Source: an uncultured Pseudomonadota bacterium (GTDB lineage Bacteria; Myxococcota; UBA796). Taken from it: DNA of 7,223 nucleotides. This document shows, piece after piece, positions 1-6,975 of this stretch; position 1 is the stretch's first letter; every line of letters starts with the position of its first letter. A program made the position numbers and the translations under genes. Below the pieces are notes generated by a model. The model had not been told where the DNA came from. It worked only from the letters and a program-made list of their open reading frames with translations, and did no database searches. The DNA lies in the NCBI GenBank assembly GCA_913040875.1, contig CAJWHX010000165.1, forward strand, positions 1-7,223. Direction: 5' to 3'.

Positions 1-509
1 GTTGGTTCATTCAGCAATCGAAGAACTTCAATCCCTGCAATCTTTGCTGCATCTTTGGTCGCTTGGCGCTGTGCGTCATCAAAATATGCGGGGACTGTTA
101 TCACCGCTCCAGTAGGTGGTGCGAACAAACACTCTTCGGCGACATTCGCTAGAGTTTTTAAAATATGTGCAGACATTTCAATTGGGGTAATGGCCTTGTC
201 ACCAATCGAAAAGCGTGTCACACGTTCATCATCAGCCAACTCATACCCAAAATCTGTTGCTTCTTCTCGTATATCATTGGGTGATCGACCCATAAATCGT
301 TTGATTGAACGAAATGTTTGCACGCCTTCTTTGCCAATTTGCTGGAGTGCTTCTGTACCAGACGCGGTTAGATTTCCATCGTTGTCATATTGCAACACTG
401 AAGGAAACAACGGATTTTCATTGTCATCAAGTAAGATCCTTGCTGTTCCACTGAGGACTACCGAAACCAAAGAATGTGTCGTGCCTAAATCAATTCCAAT
501 ATTTGCCAT
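1..509 (-). CDS. hscA: Fe-S cluster assembly chaperone HscA (Hsp70 family), N-terminal part, cut by window edge
   Basis: Specialised Hsp70 ATPase. In the known ISC pathway it binds IscU with its co-chaperone HscB and uses ATP hydrolysis to promote release of the newly built cluster to acceptor proteins in the cytoplasm. Only about the first 169 residues lie here, all within the nucleotide-binding domain. Visible landmarks are the phosphate-binding loop [11 protein letters not shown] near residues 5-15, the segment [10 protein letters not shown], and the Hsp70 signature region with [20 protein letters not shown] followed by [13 protein letters not shown] at the edge. FDDAQRQ is typical of HscA. 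The start is ATG 509, with GGAG five bases upstream. An ATG at 518-520 is in another frame and stops at once. The N-terminus is shorter than in E. coli HscA, which has about 20 extra residues before the GIDLGTT motif. The loop reads TTH where DnaK/HscA usually have TTN and eukaryotic Hsp70 has TTY. It is the last visible gene of the isc operon, 69 bases after hscB. Confidence 0.96.
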
Positions 510-564: not shown

Positions 565-583
565 GTTGACCAACTTGGTCAAC
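565..583. repeat. Perfect 19-bp palindrome spanning the hscB stop codon
   Basis: GTTGACCAA (565-573) and TTGGTCAAC (575-583) are exact reverse complements around a single base at 574. The hscB stop codon (579-581) lies inside the right arm. In RNA this would form a 7-bp stem with a 5-nt loop between hscB and hscA. There is no U-tract after it on the minus strand, so it does not look like an intrinsic terminator. It could be an intercistronic stability or processing hairpin, or a dimeric-protein binding site. Its function is unknown. Confidence 0.6.
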
Positions 584-1127
584 TGTTCACCAAATTCTGT
601 AAATACTTCATTTTGCCCAGTACTTCTTCCACACCAGACAGGTCGCCTTCCCCATTTTCCCAAGTTCTGAACTGCCCTTCCAGTTCATCTTTACAACCTG
701 TCAACAGGTCTTTCGCCTCTTCCCGAACCGACTCTCGGTCTTCCATAGCACGCATCTGCAGTTCAAAGATGGTCTCTAAGAACTCCGTGTCCATTTTGCC
801 GCCTCGTTCTGAAACACTTGCCGACCCGGTCGCTAGGTAACGAGCGCGCATGACATCATCTTGTAAAACTCGAAGACCTTCATTGACAAGAGCCATCCAT
901 TGTTTGGACATTCGACGCTCCACTGCTGACGCTTGGCGCCATTTGTCTGGATGTAAAATCTTTGCCAAACGCAAATGTGCAGAACGAACATCGTCCGTCT
1001 GGACAAAGTATCGCTTTCGCAAACCAAATACGGCAAAATAATCTGCTTTGGGTGGCGGCGGCCGTATGGCTGAACAACTGACACAAACCAATCCCTGCAT
1101 CGGTTCTTTGCATTTCCAGCACAACAT
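579..1127 (-). CDS. hscB: Fe-S cluster assembly co-chaperone HscB with N-terminal tetracysteine domain
   Basis: J-domain co-chaperone that brings IscU to HscA and stimulates its ATPase. Three parts are visible, numbered from ATG 1127. Residues 3-18 are a tetracysteine module, CWKC then CVSC, with spacing CX2C-X8-CX2C, probably a structural zinc site. Residues 29-75 are the J domain, opening with DYFAVFGL and carrying the essential HPD at 59-61 in ILHPDKW. The rest is the C-terminal helical domain that contacts IscU (ALVNEGLRVLQDD, then RARYL and a charged helical tail). The length of 182 residues fits HscB/HSC20. E. coli HscB lacks the cysteine module. Human HSCB has a similar one (CWNC and CPQC) just before its J domain. 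Start choice: ATG 1127 has GAG five bases upstream. GTG 1139, in frame with a GGGGGA upstream, would add four residues and cannot be excluded. The gene lies 85 bases after iscA and 69 bases before hscA. Confidence 0.94.
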   Translation of the reverse strand: MLCWKCKEPMQGLVCVSCSAIRPPPPKADYFAVFGLRKRYFVQTDDVRSAHLRLAKILHPDKWRQASAVERRMSKQWMALVNEGLRVLQDDVMRARYLATGSASVSERGGKMDTEFLETIFELQMRAMEDRESVREEAKDLLTGCKDELEGQFRTWENGEGDLSGVEEVLGKMKYLQNLVNS

Positions 1128-1147
1128 TTTTGCTCTCACTCAATCCC

Positions 1148-1212: not shown

Positions 1213-1539
1213 CTACAAGGTAAACGACTCGCCACAAGAACAAGATCGGGATGCCAACGGGTTGTTGAATACAAATCCAGTACGCACCATCGTCTGCTCA
1301 AAGTCGATTTCAGAGCCGTTGATAAACATGTAGCTTTTGCGTTCAACAGCAACTCGGTGATCACCGAAAGAGAACATCTTATCTTTTGCTTGGGCAGCAT
1401 CCGCAAAGTCCATGTGATAACTCAGGCCTGAGCATCCACCGCCACGAACACTGAGTCTCAAAACGGCTTCAGGGGTCTGGCGTTTCTTTTTAAGCAATGT
1501 CAAACGGTGCATGGCGTTGTCTGTCATAGTAATGGCCAC
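1213..1539 (-). CDS. iscA: Iron-sulfur cluster assembly protein IscA (A-type carrier)
   Basis: A-type Fe-S carrier of the HesB/IscA family. It binds iron or a cluster and helps deliver clusters to apo-proteins, mainly in [4Fe-4S] maturation. The 108-residue product has the family size and the three ligand cysteines at expected places: C36 in GGGCSG, and C100 and C102 in the C-terminal SRSCSCGESF. The start is GTG 1539, chosen for two reasons: a strong GGGAGG lies at 1545-1550, five bases upstream, and the resulting N-terminus reads M-AITMTD, which matches the conserved M-A/S-I/V-T start of IscA proteins. An in-frame ATG at 1527 would remove four residues and lacks such a site. The open frame continues far upstream into iscU in another register, but that extension is not IscA. 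The gene lies 55 bases after iscU and 85 bases before hscB. The cysteine pattern and position between iscU and hscB favour IscA over ErpA. Confidence 0.95.
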   Translation of the reverse strand: MAITMTDNAMHRLTLLKKKRQTPEAVLRLSVRGGGCSGLSYHMDFADAAQAKDKMFSFGDHRVAVERKSYMFINGSEIDFEQTMVRTGFVFNNPLASRSCSCGESFTL

Positions 1540-1594: not shown

Positions 1595-1987
1595 TTACTC
1601 AACCGTGCTGGCCTTCTTTTCTTGATAATTTCGGATGGCTTCCTTGATCGCATCTTCTGCAAGTACGGAGCAATGAATCTTTTGCGGTGGCAACTCAAGT
1701 TCAGCAGCGATGTCCACATTGCGTAATGTTTCAGCCTCTTCCACTCGCTTACCTTTAACCATTGTCGTCACAAGAGAAGAAGAAGCAATGGCCGAACCAC
1801 AACCGAATGTTTTGAATTTTGCATCTTCAATGACGCCTTCTTCACTGATTTTTAATTGCAATTGCATCACGTCACCACAGGCTGGTGCACCGACTACTGC
1901 AGTGCCCACTTGTGGATCTTGACGGTCCATTGAACCCATGTTGCGCGGATTGTTGAAATGATCGTTGACTTTATCGCTGTAACGCAT
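1595..1987 (-). CDS. iscU: Iron-sulfur cluster scaffold protein IscU
   Basis: Scaffold on which IscS-derived sulfur and iron are assembled into a [2Fe-2S] cluster before hand-over through HscA/HscB. The 130-residue protein is close to E. coli IscU over its whole length. The ligand set is complete and at the usual positions: C37 and D39 in APACGDV, C63 in GCGSAIASSS, and H105-C106 in KIHCS. The chaperone-recognition loop at residues 99-103 reads LPPQK instead of the almost invariant LPPVK that HscA binds, a valine-to-glutamine change. The start is ATG 1987 (MRYSDKV, as in MAYSEKV of E. coli), with GGAG at 1994-1997. A TTG at 1999 in the same frame is rejected because it overlaps that ribosome binding site and adds non-conserved residues. 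The gene lies 68 bases after iscS and 55 bases before iscA. Confidence 0.98.
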   Translation of the reverse strand: MRYSDKVNDHFNNPRNMGSMDRQDPQVGTAVVGAPACGDVMQLQLKISEEGVIEDAKFKTFGCGSAIASSSLVTTMVKGKRVEEAETLRNVDIAAELELPPQKIHCSVLAEDAIKEAIRNYQEKKASTVE

Positions 1988-2055: not shown

Positions 2056-3315
2056 TTAGTGTGCAGACCACTGAACGGTTTTCAGATCGATGCCCATCTT
2101 CGCCATTTCGTAAAGTGGACTCATATCACGAAGTTTCTTGATCTGCGTAACGATGATACCCAGTGCCGCATCGACCTCTTCTTTCGTGGTAAATCGTCCA
2201 AGACCAAAACGAATCGATGTATGGGCCAGTTCCACATCTACACCAAGAGCTCTCAAGACATAACTTGGCTCGAGACTTGCACTGGTACAGGCGGACCCTG
2301 AAGAACATGCAATTTCTTTGATCGCAAGCATGATGGCTTCTCCTTCAACATAAGCGAAGGAGATATTCAGATTGTTCGGCAGGCGATGCTCCATTGAACC
2401 GTTGATGAATACTTCATCAAGCTGCGATTGGACTTGCTTCCACATATAATCTCTGAGTTCTCTAACCTTTTCAATGTGGCCTTCTTCCAAATCCTTCTTG
2501 GAAAGTTCCGCTGCCTTACCCAAACCAACAATTTGGTGAACAGGCAACGTGCCAGAACGCATACCGCGCTCGTGACCACCACCATCAATCAATGCTTCCA
2601 AACGAATTCTGGGTCGTCCTCTCCGAACATACAAGGCACCAATTCCCTTTGGCCCGTACATTTTATGCCCAGAAATACTGAGCATATCAATCTGAGAGGC
2701 TTTCACATCCACAGTCACTCGGCCCAGCGCTTGAACAGCATCTGAGTGAAATACGACCTTAGGAGACTGTTTCGATTTTCGAGCTTCTGCGACAATGGCA
2801 CCAATCTCAGCGATGGGCTGAATCACTCCTATCTCGTTGTTGGCGTACATCACTGAAACCAAAACCGTGTCCTCACGAAGAGCGGCTTTCAAATCATCCA
2901 AACGAATCCGACCGTCCGACTCTACCTCTAGAAACGTGATCTCCCAGCCGTCTCGCATGAGTGCTTTACACGCATCTACGACCGCCTTGTGCTCTGTCAA
3001 AACCGTGATGATGTGACCCGTTTCCCCATCATTGTTTCGTTCGTAATACTTGGCAATGCCTTTGATGGCAAGGTTGTTCGACTCCGTAGCGCCTGAGGTC
3101 CAAACAATTTCCTTACCGGTAGCATTGATGAGGCTTCCGACTTGGTCTCTTGCCAACTCTACTGCATCTAGAGCATTCCAACCAAAGGCGTGAGAACGCG
3201 AAGCAGCATTGCCAAACTGATTGGTCAAGAACGGCAACATTGCCTCAACAACAGCAGGGTCGCAAGGGGTCGTTGCATGATTGTCCAAATAAATCAAATC
3301 TGAAATGTCTTTCAT
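2056..3315 (-). CDS. iscS: Cysteine desulfurase IscS
   Basis: PLP-dependent class V aminotransferase-fold enzyme that converts cysteine to alanine and passes the persulfide sulfur to IscU and other acceptors. The 419-residue protein begins with [12 protein letters not shown], has [14 protein letters not shown] near residues 73-86, and H109 in TEHK stacking on PLP. The PLP-binding lysine is K218 in [10 protein letters not shown], and the catalytic C343 lies in [20 protein letters not shown]. That long mobile-loop context and the C-terminal [13 protein letters not shown], matching the IscU-binding tail of E. coli IscS, mark it as true IscS (group I) rather than SufS, NifS or a tRNA-only desulfurase. 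It is about 15 residues longer than E. coli IscS. The start is ATG 3315 with GGAG at 3324-3327, inside the 20-base gap after the regulator gene. That tight spacing indicates co-transcription with the regulator. Confidence 0.98.
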
Positions 3316-3335: not shown

Positions 3336-3818
3336 TCAGTCGTGAGAATGCTGAAGAGATTCTTGGACTCCAGCAATGAGAATGGGAATTTGTGTCTGGT
3401 TATGACCATGTCGGGTACAATTTGGGCAGTCTGATTGATCAACTCGAAATTGGCAGGGTGTACATTGATTTGCAAACTGAATAGACTCTTGAAGTTCGGT
3501 CGCCAGCTGTTGGAGCTGGGCGATTTGCTGCTGTACTTCCAGCAACTTTTCTTGATACAAAACACTCATTTGATTCATCAAATCTGATGCTGATTCTACG
3601 GCCCCAAAGGACGACAAAAAGGTTTTTATCTCGGGAAGAGAAAACCCCAACCGATTCAATTTATCGATCCACTCGACTTGGAAAACCGCTTTATCAGAAT
3701 ACATACGGTACCCTGCTTCGGTACGACTGTCTGGCGATAGAATCCCCAACTGCTCATAATACCGAATGGCTCTAGAGGTTTTACCTGTTTTCTCAGCTAT
3801 GGTTTTAATAGAATACAT
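3336..3818 (-). CDS. MerR-family regulator with C-terminal tetracysteine cluster, first gene of the isc operon
   Basis: DNA-binding regulator of 160 residues. Residues 1-70 are a clear MerR winged-helix domain ([20 protein letters not shown], then GYRMYSD as the wing and LGFSLPEIK). Residues about 76-118 form a Gln/Leu-rich dimerization helix. It is followed by C119, C122, C131 and C134 (CTPC ... SDCPNC), then a His-containing tail (TRHGH ... QHSHD). In E. coli SoxR the [2Fe-2S] ligands are C119, C122, C124 and C130, also directly after the dimer helix and with a similar SDCP stretch. Here the middle cysteine is absent and one is added at the end. Bound Fe-S or zinc is therefore likely, but which one cannot be read from sequence. 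The gene occupies the usual iscR position, 20 bases before iscS, and its promoter contains a MerR-type palindrome, so autoregulation and control of isc are inferred. ATG 3818 is the only start that gives a complete MerR domain. Its ribosome site is weak (GAGAG, about 11 bases away). Alternatives are a zinc or copper sensor. Confidence 0.93.
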
Positions 3819-3833
3819 AAACGACTGCTCTCA

Positions 3834-3868
3834 ACCTTAACCTTAACGTAAAGGTTACTGTTTGTCAA
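3834..3868 (-). promoter_or_regulatory. Promoter with MerR-type operator for the regulator-isc operon
   Basis: On the minus strand a perfect -35 TTGACA (3863-3868) is followed after 17 bases by TAAGGT (3840-3845), and the same hexamer is repeated directly at 3834-3839. TAAGGT also serves as the -10 of the classical Tn501 merT promoter. The near-palindrome AACCTT-AACGTA-AAGGTT (3839-3856, 16 of 18 positions symmetric) lies between and over these elements, and a third half-site AACCTT (3833-3838) adjoins it. MerR-activated promoters usually have a 19-20-bp spacer. A 17-bp spacer would suit repression by the bound regulator, though the second TAAGGT (23-bp spacer) leaves the real -10 uncertain. 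The predicted leader is only about 15 bases. Confidence 0.68.
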
Positions 3869-3874
3869 CAAATG

Positions 3875-6133
3875 TCACTCGATGAAATGCATTTTGCCCT
3901 GTTCGAACTCTATTTTAATTATCCCATGCCAATCTGTTCTCAATACTTTCGACTCTCTAAGAGACCACAATGTTTCAGGATGGGGATGACCAAATCGGTT
4001 CCTTTCACCTACAGATATAACGCTAAAATTCGGTTCCAACAAGGATATGAATTTCTCTGATGTCGATGTTTTAGACCCGTGGTGCGCTACCTTTAATACA
4101 TCCACATCGGACAGCACTTCGAGCAATCGACGTTCAGCATCTTCCTCAATGTCTCCTGTAAGCAATACCTTATGTTGAGCAATACTGATTTCTAAGACGA
4201 CGCTCTCTTCATTGCAACGATCGGATGTATCGGCCTTCCAATCATGTGGATGTAGAATTCTAACATGTCTATTGACTACGTCTGAAGTCCATTGAATCGT
4301 GTGGGCAATCTGAATCGGCACAGATTTGGATCTAGCAAAATCCCATAATGCAGAATATCTCCCACCTTCATCTTCAGGTTCCAAACCCCGTCCAACAATT
4401 AGAGATCCAACATCAACGTGTTGCAACACAGAAAACATCCCCTCCATATGATCCGCGTGAGGATGAGACAGCCACATCTTATCAATACGCCAAATCCCCT
4501 GTCGCTTCAGATACGGCACCAAATCAAATGTGAACGGACCTGCGTCCACCAGCCACACCACTCCATCTTTCCACTGTATGAGTGTAGCATCCCCTTGTCC
4601 AACCGGAAGAAACTGAATCTGCATTTCAGGACGGTTCTTCAAATACAAATGGTACATTGACCCATACGGAGTATTGATCCAAATGAGCCCACTCCCCATC
4701 AATCCAAACATACATCTTACCCATTTGTTCTTTATCAAAGCAACACTGATGATACATCCAAATGCTATGAATACATCTCGAACATCAAACGCAACCATGA
4801 AAGGCTCGATACTCAATGGTTCCAATAGCCACATCGATAATTCCACAGACGCATCTGCGATGACAAAGAAAAGCATCGATATGGTTGAACAGCCAGACAT
4901 ACCAGTCACAAGACCCAGCATAGAGATTGGCACTGCTAAGGTGGCTAGGAATGGTGTAACCAACAAATTGGCAATTACCCCAGTCAACGGAATGGACTGA
5001 AAGATCCAAGCACAAATCGGGATCGTACCAATTGTTGCGCCTACCGTCATTCCTATCGAGACTGTGATCCCATTTACAATACGAGACTTTGATTTTGAGG
5101 TCAATCGACGGGCGTATTGCCCAAACAGTCCAATGCCAATCACCGCTGCAAAAGAGAGCTGGCATCCCAAATCATGCATCATCGAAGGTTCATGAAGCAG
5201 CATCACCATTCCTGTCAATCCCAGAACATCCCATAGAGAAAAGGATACATCCAATCCTCTACCGATACAATACACACACACCATTAACACAGCCCTTTGA
5301 GCCGATGCAGACCACCCAACCTGATGCCCATACCACACTGAAACCAGTATGGAACCGGTCAATGCAATTCGTTTTGTATACGCATCCAACCCCCATCTTT
5401 CAAATCTATCGATCAATACAATCCATCCTATTAGTCGATATAAGAATGCATACGTACACGCCGCCATGAGACCAATGTGCATTCCACTAATCGCCAACAG
5501 ATGACTGGTACCCGTGTGCTGAAGTTTTTGCTTCAACGCCGGGTCAATACCCGACTTATCTCCAGATATTAATGCCCACAAAACACCTCCGTATGTCAAG
5601 TCATCTAATATCACTGGCTTTTGAACCCGTTCTGGCTCACTGTGAATGATCCACTCTTTGGCCTTCCGAACCCCCATTCTTTGAGCATGTACGCGTCTAA
5701 ATTGATCCACACCCCCTTCCCAATATGCGAGCCCGGTCTTTGGTTGATGCCACACCGACACCAACGACCCTTGAATTGGTGCTGACGGAAAAAATTCTAT
5801 CAACCACCGTTCACCTTCATTTTGAATCAAAGCCTCTCGACGATTGGATTTCATCACCCAACCGGTTGTATACCCGTCCAATTCAACAGATTGATCTGTT
5901 GCATTCACCATGGTGGACAATCGCAACGCACCAATCATCATTGCCATTATCCAGACGATCACTCTTCCTTGTCGAGGATCCTTACAGACCAAAAGCAAGA
6001 GCCCATACGCACACACCCCAATGCGCAACCCCATTACACTTGGTTCCCAACACCACCATGTCACTATTCCAGTAACAATCGCCAGTGATACTTCCCCAAC
6101 CCGAATCTTGATTTCTTCCCTTTTGACCTGCAT
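3875..6133 (-). CDS. comEC: ComEC/Rec2-family DNA-uptake channel protein
   Basis: Inner-membrane protein that carries single-stranded DNA into the cytoplasm during natural transformation. The 752 residues show the full three-part architecture. Residues about 12-75 are N-terminal membrane helices, followed by a soluble OB-like segment to about 170 (DUF4131 region). The Competence domain at about 180-480 has many membrane helices and the hallmark HLLAISGMHIG at 211-221. The C-terminal metallo-beta-lactamase-like domain starts near 505 (FLPVGQGDATLI), with HPHADH at 557-562, LLTGD at 657-661, AHHGS at 683-687 and GHPH at 715-718. The metal-ligand motifs are present, so the nuclease-like domain looks intact. 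The start is ATG 6133, giving a charged N-terminus before the first helix. The upstream GGCGG is a poor ribosome site. The stop codon lies only six bases before the -35 of the isc promoter, with no terminator between, so read-through into isc is possible. No other competence gene is visible. Confidence 0.95.
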   Translation of the reverse strand: MQVKREEIKIRVGEVSLAIVTGIVTWWCWEPSVMGLRIGVCAYGLLLLVCKDPRQGRVIVWIMAMMIGALRLSTMVNATDQSVELDGYTTGWVMKSNRREALIQNEGERWLIEFFPSAPIQGSLVSVWHQPKTGLAYWEGGVDQFRRVHAQRMGVRKAKEWIIHSEPERVQKPVILDDLTYGGVLWALISGDKSGIDPALKQKLQHTGTSHLLAISGMHIGLMAACTYAFLYRLIGWIVLIDRFERWGLDAYTKRIALTGSILVSVWYGHQVGWSASAQRAVLMVCVYCIGRGLDVSFSLWDVLGLTGMVMLLHEPSMMHDLGCQLSFAAVIGIGLFGQYARRLTSKSKSRIVNGITVSIGMTVGATIGTIPICAWIFQSIPLTGVIANLLVTPFLATLAVPISMLGLVTGMSGCSTISMLFFVIADASVELSMWLLEPLSIEPFMVAFDVRDVFIAFGCIISVALIKNKWVRCMFGLMGSGLIWINTPYGSMYHLYLKNRPEMQIQFLPVGQGDATLIQWKDGVVWLVDAGPFTFDLVPYLKRQGIWRIDKMWLSHPHADHMEGMFSVLQHVDVGSLIVGRGLEPEDEGGRYSALWDFARSKSVPIQIAHTIQWTSDVVNRHVRILHPHDWKADTSDRCNEESVVLEISIAQHKVLLTGDIEEDAERRLLEVLSDVDVLKVAHHGSKTSTSEKFISLLEPNFSVISVGERNRFGHPHPETLWSLRESKVLRTDWHGIIKIEFEQGKMHFIE

Positions 6134-6501: not shown

Positions 6502-6975
6502 TCATTCGGAGGGAGAGACCTGAGTAGTGTATATCTCACTGGGGTTGCTGGCTTCGTCATATACAGTAACGGATACATCGTACGTACTTGCCTCATCAAC
6601 CTCTCCAATAAAGAAGGTCAACTCGCCTTCTTCAACCAAGACCGCCTCGCCGTCTATATCTATTTCTGTCGATTCCGCAGACTCCCCATCTCCCCACTGA
6701 TAGTCGACTTCAAGCATGCCATTTAACAAATCTCCTTGTGGATCTGTAACATAGACATGCATCTCTAAGGCAATACCATTTTCATCGGCTACAAAATACC
6801 CGTCCATCCCTGAAATCAGAGGATTGACGCTATTTTCCGAATCCGAAGCATCACCAGAACCACCTTCTGTGCTGTCAGTCAACGCGTCTGTATCAATGGT
6901 ATTGTTGCCAGACGTTGAAAATCCAGATTCTGTGTCTCCTTGACACGCAAAGAATAAAGAAAGCAAGAGCGTCAT
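6502..6975 (-). CDS. Putative secreted acidic lipoprotein without lysine or arginine
   Basis: I do not recognise the family. The 157-residue product starts with a short hydrophobic run (LLLSLFFA) ending at C11, which fits a lipoprotein signal with the modified cysteine at residue 11, though FFAC is not the canonical lipobox and the n-region has no positive charge. Residues about 12-50 are a low-complexity Ser/Thr/Asp/Gly linker. The rest (MHVYVTDPQGDLL ... VDYQWGDGE ... TYDVSVTVYDEASNP) looks like one beta-sandwich domain of the PKD/Ig-like or cadherin-like kind, with DPQGD and DGE turns that could bind calcium. About 35 residues are Asp or Glu, and there is no Lys or Arg at all. ATG 6975 is preceded by GGGG at 6983-6986. 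No in-frame start lies further upstream before a stop. It is likely surface-exposed and monocistronic, divergent from the gene at 7055. Confidence 0.72.
   Translation of the reverse strand: MTLLLSLFFACQGDTESGFSTSGNNTIDTDALTDSTEGGSGDASDSENSVNPLISGMDGYFVADENGIALEMHVYVTDPQGDLLNGMLEVDYQWGDGESAESTEIDIDGEAVLVEEGELTFFIGEVDEASTYDVSVTVYDEASNPSEIYTTQVSPSE

Follow-up and report, generated by a model that had tools for sequence, protein, structure and literature searches.

The isc operon in the window, the whole 7,223-nucleotide stretch of DNA analysed here, begins with a gene for a MerR-family protein that carries four cysteines in two pairs, and a palindromic operator lies in front of that gene. The association of this regulator with the isc genes and with the operator is real, conserved and specific. 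It is very probable, judging from gene order and conservation, that the tetracysteine MerR regulates isc, and repression is the probable mode. The full model, in which a dedicated and autoregulated isc repressor would carry a four-cysteine site most likely reporting Fe-S, is held with slightly better than even confidence. The feedback job usually done by an IscR-type regulator thus seems to have passed to another family of proteins.

The regulator gene and its operon

The genes on the minus strand of the window follow one another with short gaps in the order comEC-like gene, MerR gene, iscS, iscU, iscA, hscB and hscA, the last being cut. The features are listed below.

3863..3868, minus strand: TTGACA, possible -35 element, read by eye, with TTGAC at offset -10 from the operator
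3840..3845, minus strand: TAAGGT, possible -10 element, read by eye, 17 bp after TTGACA and inside the operator
3837..3858, minus strand: operator palindrome GTAACCTTTACGTTAAGGTTAA, ending 18 bp upstream of the start codon of the MerR gene (leave-one-out matrix, 20.5 bits)
3336..3818, minus strand: tetracysteine MerR-family regulator, 160 aa, ATG start, first gene of the isc operon (open reading frame; three Pfam MerR families over cut-off)
3417..3464, minus strand: codons of the CX2C-X8-CX2C motif, C119 to C134 (sequence; alignment conservation)
2056..3315, minus strand: iscS, cysteine desulfurase (NF010611, 630 bits, cut-off 548)
1595..1987, minus strand: iscU, scaffold (TIGR01999, 207.6 bits, cut-off 192.4)
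1213..1527, minus strand: iscA-type carrier (TIGR00049, 111.2 bits, cut-off 58.8)
579..1139, minus strand: hscB-type co-chaperone (NF002935, 68.7 bits, under the cut-off of 198)
3..509, minus strand: hscA, 5' part, truncated by the window edge (best match TIGR01991, 193.7 bits over 166 residues)

The iscA product was scored on the longer open reading frame 1213-1719, and the starts given for iscU and iscA are chosen inner ATG codons. The hscB-type protein (579-1139) also scores slightly under the cut-offs of Pfam DnaJ and HSCB_C; its N-terminal stretch holds CX2C ... CX2C, which we take to be reminiscent of eukaryotic HSC20. Upstream of the regulator, the ComEC-like gene (3875-6133, minus strand) encodes Competence and metallo-beta-lactamase domains according to Pfam, and 56 bases separate its stop codon from the start of the MerR gene, with the operator inside that gap. 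Further away, a 157-aa open reading frame (6502-6975, minus strand) resembles a secreted acidic protein and has no Pfam match.

The stop codon of the MerR gene ends at 3336 and iscS begins at 3315. The 20-base gap reported by the sequence-only reading was confirmed, as were its four cysteines, C119-X2-C122-X8-C131-X2-C134, with correct coordinates. The gene is the first of an assembly operon, a place shared with the gene for IscR, the Rrf2-family protein of E. coli and others, which is likewise a cysteine-bearing DNA-binding protein with a presumed role in Fe-S feedback. The window family differs from IscR in having a MerR domain rather than an Rrf2 domain, a different operator, and four cysteines in two pairs where IscR has three plus a fourth ligand.

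The claimed MerR DNA-binding domain and dimer helix are both present. In particular, MerR_1 (53.2 bits, cut-off 21.6), MerR (40.6, cut-off 28.2) and MerR-DNA-bind (40.1, cut-off 25.4) all match the window protein over cut-off, with the winged-helix domain preceding the dimer helix as in the MerR superfamily, while the Rrf2 family is absent from its Pfam and NCBIfam matches. None of the NCBIfam equivalog models for CueR, ZntR, MerR, CadR-PbrR and SoxR is matched over cut-off. CueR and ZntR are the best-scoring, with 84.7 bits for CueR (curated cut-off 147.4) and 69 for ZntR (167.95; ZntR-type scores range from 69 to 75.6 bits, under cut-off), followed by mercury MerR with 67.5 (150.85) and CadR-PbrR with 55.2 (151.45). 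The sequence relatives in the PDB are MerR-family regulators such as CueR. Aligned CueR-like relatives have at most two C-terminal cysteines. The targets of CueR and ZntR lie in metal export.

SoxR shares with the window protein the MerR fold and cysteines just after the dimer helix. The proposal that the CX2C pair lies where SoxR has it holds roughly, as C119 of the window falls at position 126 of the family profile and SoxR residue 120 at position 120, so that the SoxR pair stands about seven residues earlier. The SoxR motif, which we take to be CX2C-X-C-X5-C (C119/C122/C124/C130) holding [2Fe-2S], was not found: the window has CX2C-X8-CX2C, and its relatives have X7-X12 between the pairs. 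The suggested likeness to SoxR extends to the fold and to the SoxR structure (PDB 2zhg), reached only with the family profile (E 2.5e-9), but not to the equivalog model, on which the window protein scores 34.5 bits, far under the cut-off of 116.9, and the promoter geometry of relatives suggests repression.

A four-cysteine family and the first place of isc operons

A protein search returned 80 homologues, and a profile search 4465 matches, 120 of which were listed. When the protein hits and the listed profile matches were pooled, 117 of 171 proteins had CX2C-X8-CX2C beyond residue 90, the others including fragments, CX3C variants and ordinary MerR proteins. All four cysteine columns are invariant in both assembled family alignments (29 and 52 rows). 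A scan of genome contigs gave 71 confirmed MerR loci: four (L001-L004) have the MerR gene followed by an iscS of 65-72% identity, one (L006) by an iscS of 52% and one (L005) by suf genes, and the other 65 are distant MerR genes with no adjoining isc operon in the fetched stretch. Viral contigs yielded no confirmed relative.

The family was then surveyed in 282 genomes of one phylum, apparently Myxococcota, to which G001, home of L001, belongs. Matches were found in 163/282 genomes at 1e-15 and in 85/282 at 1e-40 or better. All 92 strong matches (1e-40 or better) were read together with 15 weaker ones; the weaker survey matches outside the loci read (roughly E above 1e-27, G018 apart) resemble other MerR proteins. 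With linkage defined as a same-strand desulfurase reading frame starting at most 400 bases downstream, overlaps allowed, 83 of the 92 strong matches lie directly upstream of iscS or another desulfurase, compared with 0/15 of the weaker ones. The linked desulfurases are IscS-like in 80 cases (about 50% identity or more) and distant in three (37-42%; L158, L162, L163). Of the nine unlinked strong matches, L124 stands at a contig end and the other eight are found away from isc; for seven of these eight, the genome holds a further, isc-linked copy.

The cysteines are similarly constant. Four are kept in 82 of the 83 desulfurase-linked genes, with X2 or X3 separating the cysteines of the first pair and X7-X12 separating the two pairs (CX2C-X(7-12)-CX2C in 71, CX3C-X8-CX2C in 11), and the sole exception, L128, has three. 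The tabulation of four-cysteine MerR proteins and iscS linkage that had been proposed, together with the lack of fit to any named NCBIfam equivalog, supports the assignment of the window MerR to a distinct tetracysteine subfamily. Six loci (L157, L161, L164, L166, L167, L168) hold a second four-cysteine MerR paralogue away from isc. By eye, such isc-distant paralogues often follow a deoxynucleoside-kinase-like gene or precede a sigma-factor-like gene; one such kinase had no match when scanned against NCBIfam, and L157 lies near a QueG gene (282.9 bits).

IscU scored over cut-off in 99/282 Myxococcota genomes, and 75 of these 99 hold the tetracysteine MerR. Among the 24 without it, a three-cysteine Rrf2 gene stands directly before iscS in 11; in 9 the isc region was read and matched neither Rrf2 nor the tetracysteine MerR, and in 4 the isc region ends at a contig edge. 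Thus, within this one phylum, the first place of the isc operon appears to be held by one regulator or the other. The claim that the MerR "replaces IscR" is fair as to where the gene stands and what it presumably does. The two isc-head Rrf2 genes tested, however, are closer in score to the model for the Xanthomonas SUF regulator than to that for IscR. The isc locus of Myxococcus xanthus is described as having no regulator gene (PMC9973013).

Whether carriers of the MerR lack iscR was examined in relatives of the window. No Rrf2 match at all was found in 26/85 MerR-bearing genomes versus 7/197 others, many of these being incomplete drafts. On the Rrf2 model, the isc-linked Rrf2 genes reach E 3e-55 or better and the Rrf2 loci of MerR-bearing genomes 2e-23 or worse (32 loci read from 30 MerR-bearing genomes with a match), with the exception of L072, which is one of the model's own seeds and lacks the three cysteines. 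Some three-cysteine pattern occurs in 13/32 of these loci, and an unlinked Rrf2 protein could therefore act at isc in such genomes. SufB was found in 3/60 MerR-bearing genomes, 57 having no match, so that these bacteria probably assemble their clusters mainly by isc.

The association extends to a second phylum. In 294 genomes of Planctomycetota, the phylum of G005, seven MerR matches reach 1e-40. In L272, L273 and L275 the MerR gene precedes iscS-iscU; in L006 it is followed by iscS, an IscA-like gene and sufB; and in L005 it heads sufB-sufC-sufD (SufB 920.7 bits, cut-off 717), followed by sufU-like and sufT-like genes. As for the remaining matches, L246 lies at a contig end, and the single match read as L247/L274 has no such gene.

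These neighbourhoods bear on the nature of the cysteine site. The CX2C-X(7-12)-CX2C spacing also occurs in sites of the zinc-ribbon and rubredoxin-like kinds, and the nearest NCBIfam models of the window protein, all below cut-off, are the metal sensors CueR and ZntR. The four cysteines could accordingly bind a structural zinc in a regulator that has isc as its target but responds to zinc or some other signal and does not read Fe-S status. This zinc-site reading is unlikely, given the co-location with two different Fe-S assembly systems, ISC and SUF, and the lack of any metal exporter beside the genes examined, as judged from names and homology search among partly identified neighbours.

Operator, promoter geometry and possible further targets

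To find the operator, the stretch before each of 98 family genes was searched over at most 260 bases; 95 of these stretches are distinct. Among exact palindrome cores, ACCC-N8-GGGT was the most frequent (24 versus 0.6 expected), and the refined motif is CTAACCCTTACGTAAGGGTTAG, with the consensus CTnACsyTnACGTnArsGTnAG. It scores at least 12 bits in 89/95 regions and at least 10 in 91/95, compared with 0 in shuffled and 0 in reversed sequence. The motif was learned on the same regions in which it was counted; independent of this are the leave-one-out score of the window, the pattern scans of whole genomes and the loci of cysM. With the matrix built without the window, the window operator scores 20.5 bits and the best non-overlapping place -1.1, and the pattern with up to 3 mismatches matches the window once, compared with 0 in 200 shuffles. 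By eye, 9 of its 11 pairs are symmetric. The MerR proteins of this family thus have a palindromic operator, as is usual in the superfamily. The palindrome noticed earlier before the gene is real, but it is an element of 22-28 bp centred on ACGT rather than all of 3834-3868.

The conserved stretch measures about 28 bases and breaks off at either end, most of the flanking sequence being unconserved. The six regions under 12 bits include those of the near relatives L002 (10.7) and L004 (10.4) and of L158, L162 and L163, the three genes before a distant desulfurase. Conversely, among 20 isc operons that lack the MerR, 19 reach at most 5.0 bits, and L195 has a weak site of 13 bits. Among planctomycete genes, the SUF-leading one has an operator of 17.7 bits and the iscS-leading ones 19-26. 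A strict pattern applied to 50 genomes gave 21 places in 16 genomes, 20 of them at family genes and one at a cysM operon, with 0 for the reversed pattern; the strict pattern misses most operators. Four loci (L082, L095, L103, L110) have two tandem operators, 29-33 bases apart, before the MerR-isc operon.

The same operator type is shared by the isc-distant paralogues L157, L159, L161, L164 and L166, and by more distant planctomycete MerR genes with no isc link (L251, L255, L259, L265). Four cysteines plus the operator are therefore not, on their own, proof of isc control. The MerR might even serve other genes and stand at isc by chance or by inherited synteny. Indeed, neighbours may stay together for long in a lineage, and a quick IscS tree of 104 rows has 4 changes of regulator type compared with a shuffled mean of 18.4. 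Such ordinary co-location is nevertheless very improbable, because the operator precedes the MerR-isc unit in 89/95 regions amid mostly unconserved flanks and because the MerR is found with SUF as well, in a second phylum.

The position of the operator relative to the promoter points to the mode of regulation. TTGAC occurs at most 50 bases upstream of the operator in 69/89 loci (shuffled mean 2.7), and TA follows it after exactly 17 bases in 46/64; other spacers give 12 or fewer, the highest of these counts, for a spacer of 19, coming partly from TATA. With +1 set seven bases after the -10 element, the inferred start in relatives lies between 11 bases before the 22-bp operator and 11 bases inside it. 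In the window, where a promoter scan of 3790-3960 gave no match, the promoter read by eye would have the operator span part of the spacer and the -10 element, unlike that of most relatives, in which it lies over the start.

Classical MerR and SoxR operators lie within a 19-20 bp promoter spacer, and SoxR activates from such a long spacer. A dimer of the window family could similarly twist an over-long spacer when a cluster is oxidised or lost; the MerR fold and the palindrome fit this activator reading, as does the window TTGACA, 10 bases before the operator, which puts the operator between the possible -35 and -10 elements as read by eye. The relatives do not have the 19-20 bp spacer: it is 17 bp, with the operator at the start site, in 46/64 loci, and the by-eye spacer of the window is also 17 bp. 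An operator over the start site of a 17-bp-spacer promoter is a repressor geometry, unlike MerR or SoxR activation, and the activator reading is thus rather improbable.

Some genomes have the operator at a second kind of gene. The single strict-pattern place away from the family precedes a cysteine synthase gene of the PALP family, with JAB, ThiS and ThiF genes next in line (L302), and a looser pattern added two further cysteine synthase genes (L301, L304). In an unbiased test, 30 cysM loci from 27 of 30 other MerR-bearing genomes were compared with 29 loci from MerR-free genomes, one short locus being dropped. The operator scored 18-22 bits in 3/30 and below 0 in the other 27, versus 0/29 in the MerR-free set (best 3.4 bits); by count this difference is not significant, and its weight lies in the score gap. 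Altogether, the operator precedes a cysteine synthase gene in six genomes, three found by pattern and three by the unbiased test.

The looser pattern gave 78 places in 79 genomes versus 12 when reversed, among the matches listed, and 23 places away from known loci were fetched. Seven sites exceed 25 bits: besides L301, L302 and L304, these are L303:2120-2141 (G037; 27.2 bits), which lies 135 bases upstream of a gene for a QrcA-like multihaem cytochrome (76.1 bits, cut-off 180); L305, in or at the start of a glycosyltransferase-like reading frame; L307, with no called gene nearby; and L308, at a contig end where a paralogue would be expected. A wide regulon was considered and rejected, as the strict pattern gave one off-family place in 50 genomes and the rest of the 23 fetched places scored lower or not at all, several within reading frames. 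Control of suf by the operator within the phylum was likewise set aside: in G132, the one of 54 genomes with sufB, the sufB locus fetched has no site of at least 8 bits. In G046, L320 and L322 hold TTGACGTTGACGTTAACGTCAA-type palindromes, and L320 adjoins a second MerR gene and an acyl-CoA dehydrogenase gene. We take this MerR, whose gene has a related palindrome nearby, to be LiuR-like; LiuR-type MerR proteins have catabolic targets.

The cysM sites raise the alternative of a sulfur or cysteine sensor, in which the cysteine pairs would react with persulfide, sulfide or disulfide stress and balance cysteine synthesis against desulfurase. One of the six cysM operators stands before the JAB, ThiS and ThiF carrier-protein cysteine pathway, and in a deeper planctomycete branch, the next twelve matches (L249-L260), 7/12 loci have CX2C-X10-CX2C and precede a same-strand NifS-like desulfurase (L250, L252, L253, L254, L256, L257, L260). 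However, those seven genes have no isc-type operator (10.0 bits or less), and the cysM site occurs in a minority of loci (3/30) whereas the isc site is nearly constant. A sulfur sensor is therefore an improbable, though not a negligible, reading.

Proposed mechanism and meaning

The four-cysteine site is best read as reporting Fe-S, iron or sulfur status, and the chance that its ligand is an Fe-S cluster is about even. Gene order, the conservation of the cysteines and the operator, the operator position in relatives and the alternation with Rrf2 are taken from the sequences, and from them we infer that the protein binds, represses and provides feedback, and what its ligand is. According to the repressor model, a MerR homodimer, expected from the fold, would bind the palindrome before its own gene and keep RNA polymerase from starting there. 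Occupation of the four-cysteine site, in all likelihood by an Fe-S cluster that the operon itself has produced, would hold isc low; when clusters or iron run short, the MerR would release the operator and isc would rise. In some species the same operator may also control a cysteine synthase operon, the source of the sulfur donor of IscS.

Most known cases of feedback on Fe-S assembly involve SufR or sensors of the Rrf2 family (IscR, RisR). The literature searched, in part and with few subscription journals, held no MerR regulator of isc or suf, which is weak evidence of novelty. A parallel to the proposed scheme may be seen in RisR, an Rrf2 protein from the same broad bacterial group, whose holo form represses isc and suf in M. 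xanthus (PMC9973013). RisR, as described there, differs from the window family in being encoded with suf, in acting on both isc and suf and in belonging to another protein family (PMC9973013), and the MerR-bearing genomes are mostly without sufB (57/60).

A still broader reading is that the MerR fold became, independently of Rrf2 proteins, an Fe-S-sensing repressor at the head of both ISC and SUF operons, that it covers the start site of an ordinary 17-bp-spacer promoter rather than distorting a spacer as MerR does, that it displaced an Rrf2 regulator within one phylum and ties in cysteine synthesis in some species, and that it has a four-cysteine cluster site not previously described; taken jointly, these elements are put forward tentatively, at somewhat less than an even chance. 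If true, a second DNA-binding fold would occupy the same seat, meaning that the Fe-S feedback loop evolved more than once, and a MerR protein would carry a new kind of four-cysteine site. Collectively, the analysis leads one to expect this regulator, its operator of 22-28 bp and a regulon limited to isc and in some cases cysM across a large bacterial group, most of which, in the sample tested, is without the SUF system.
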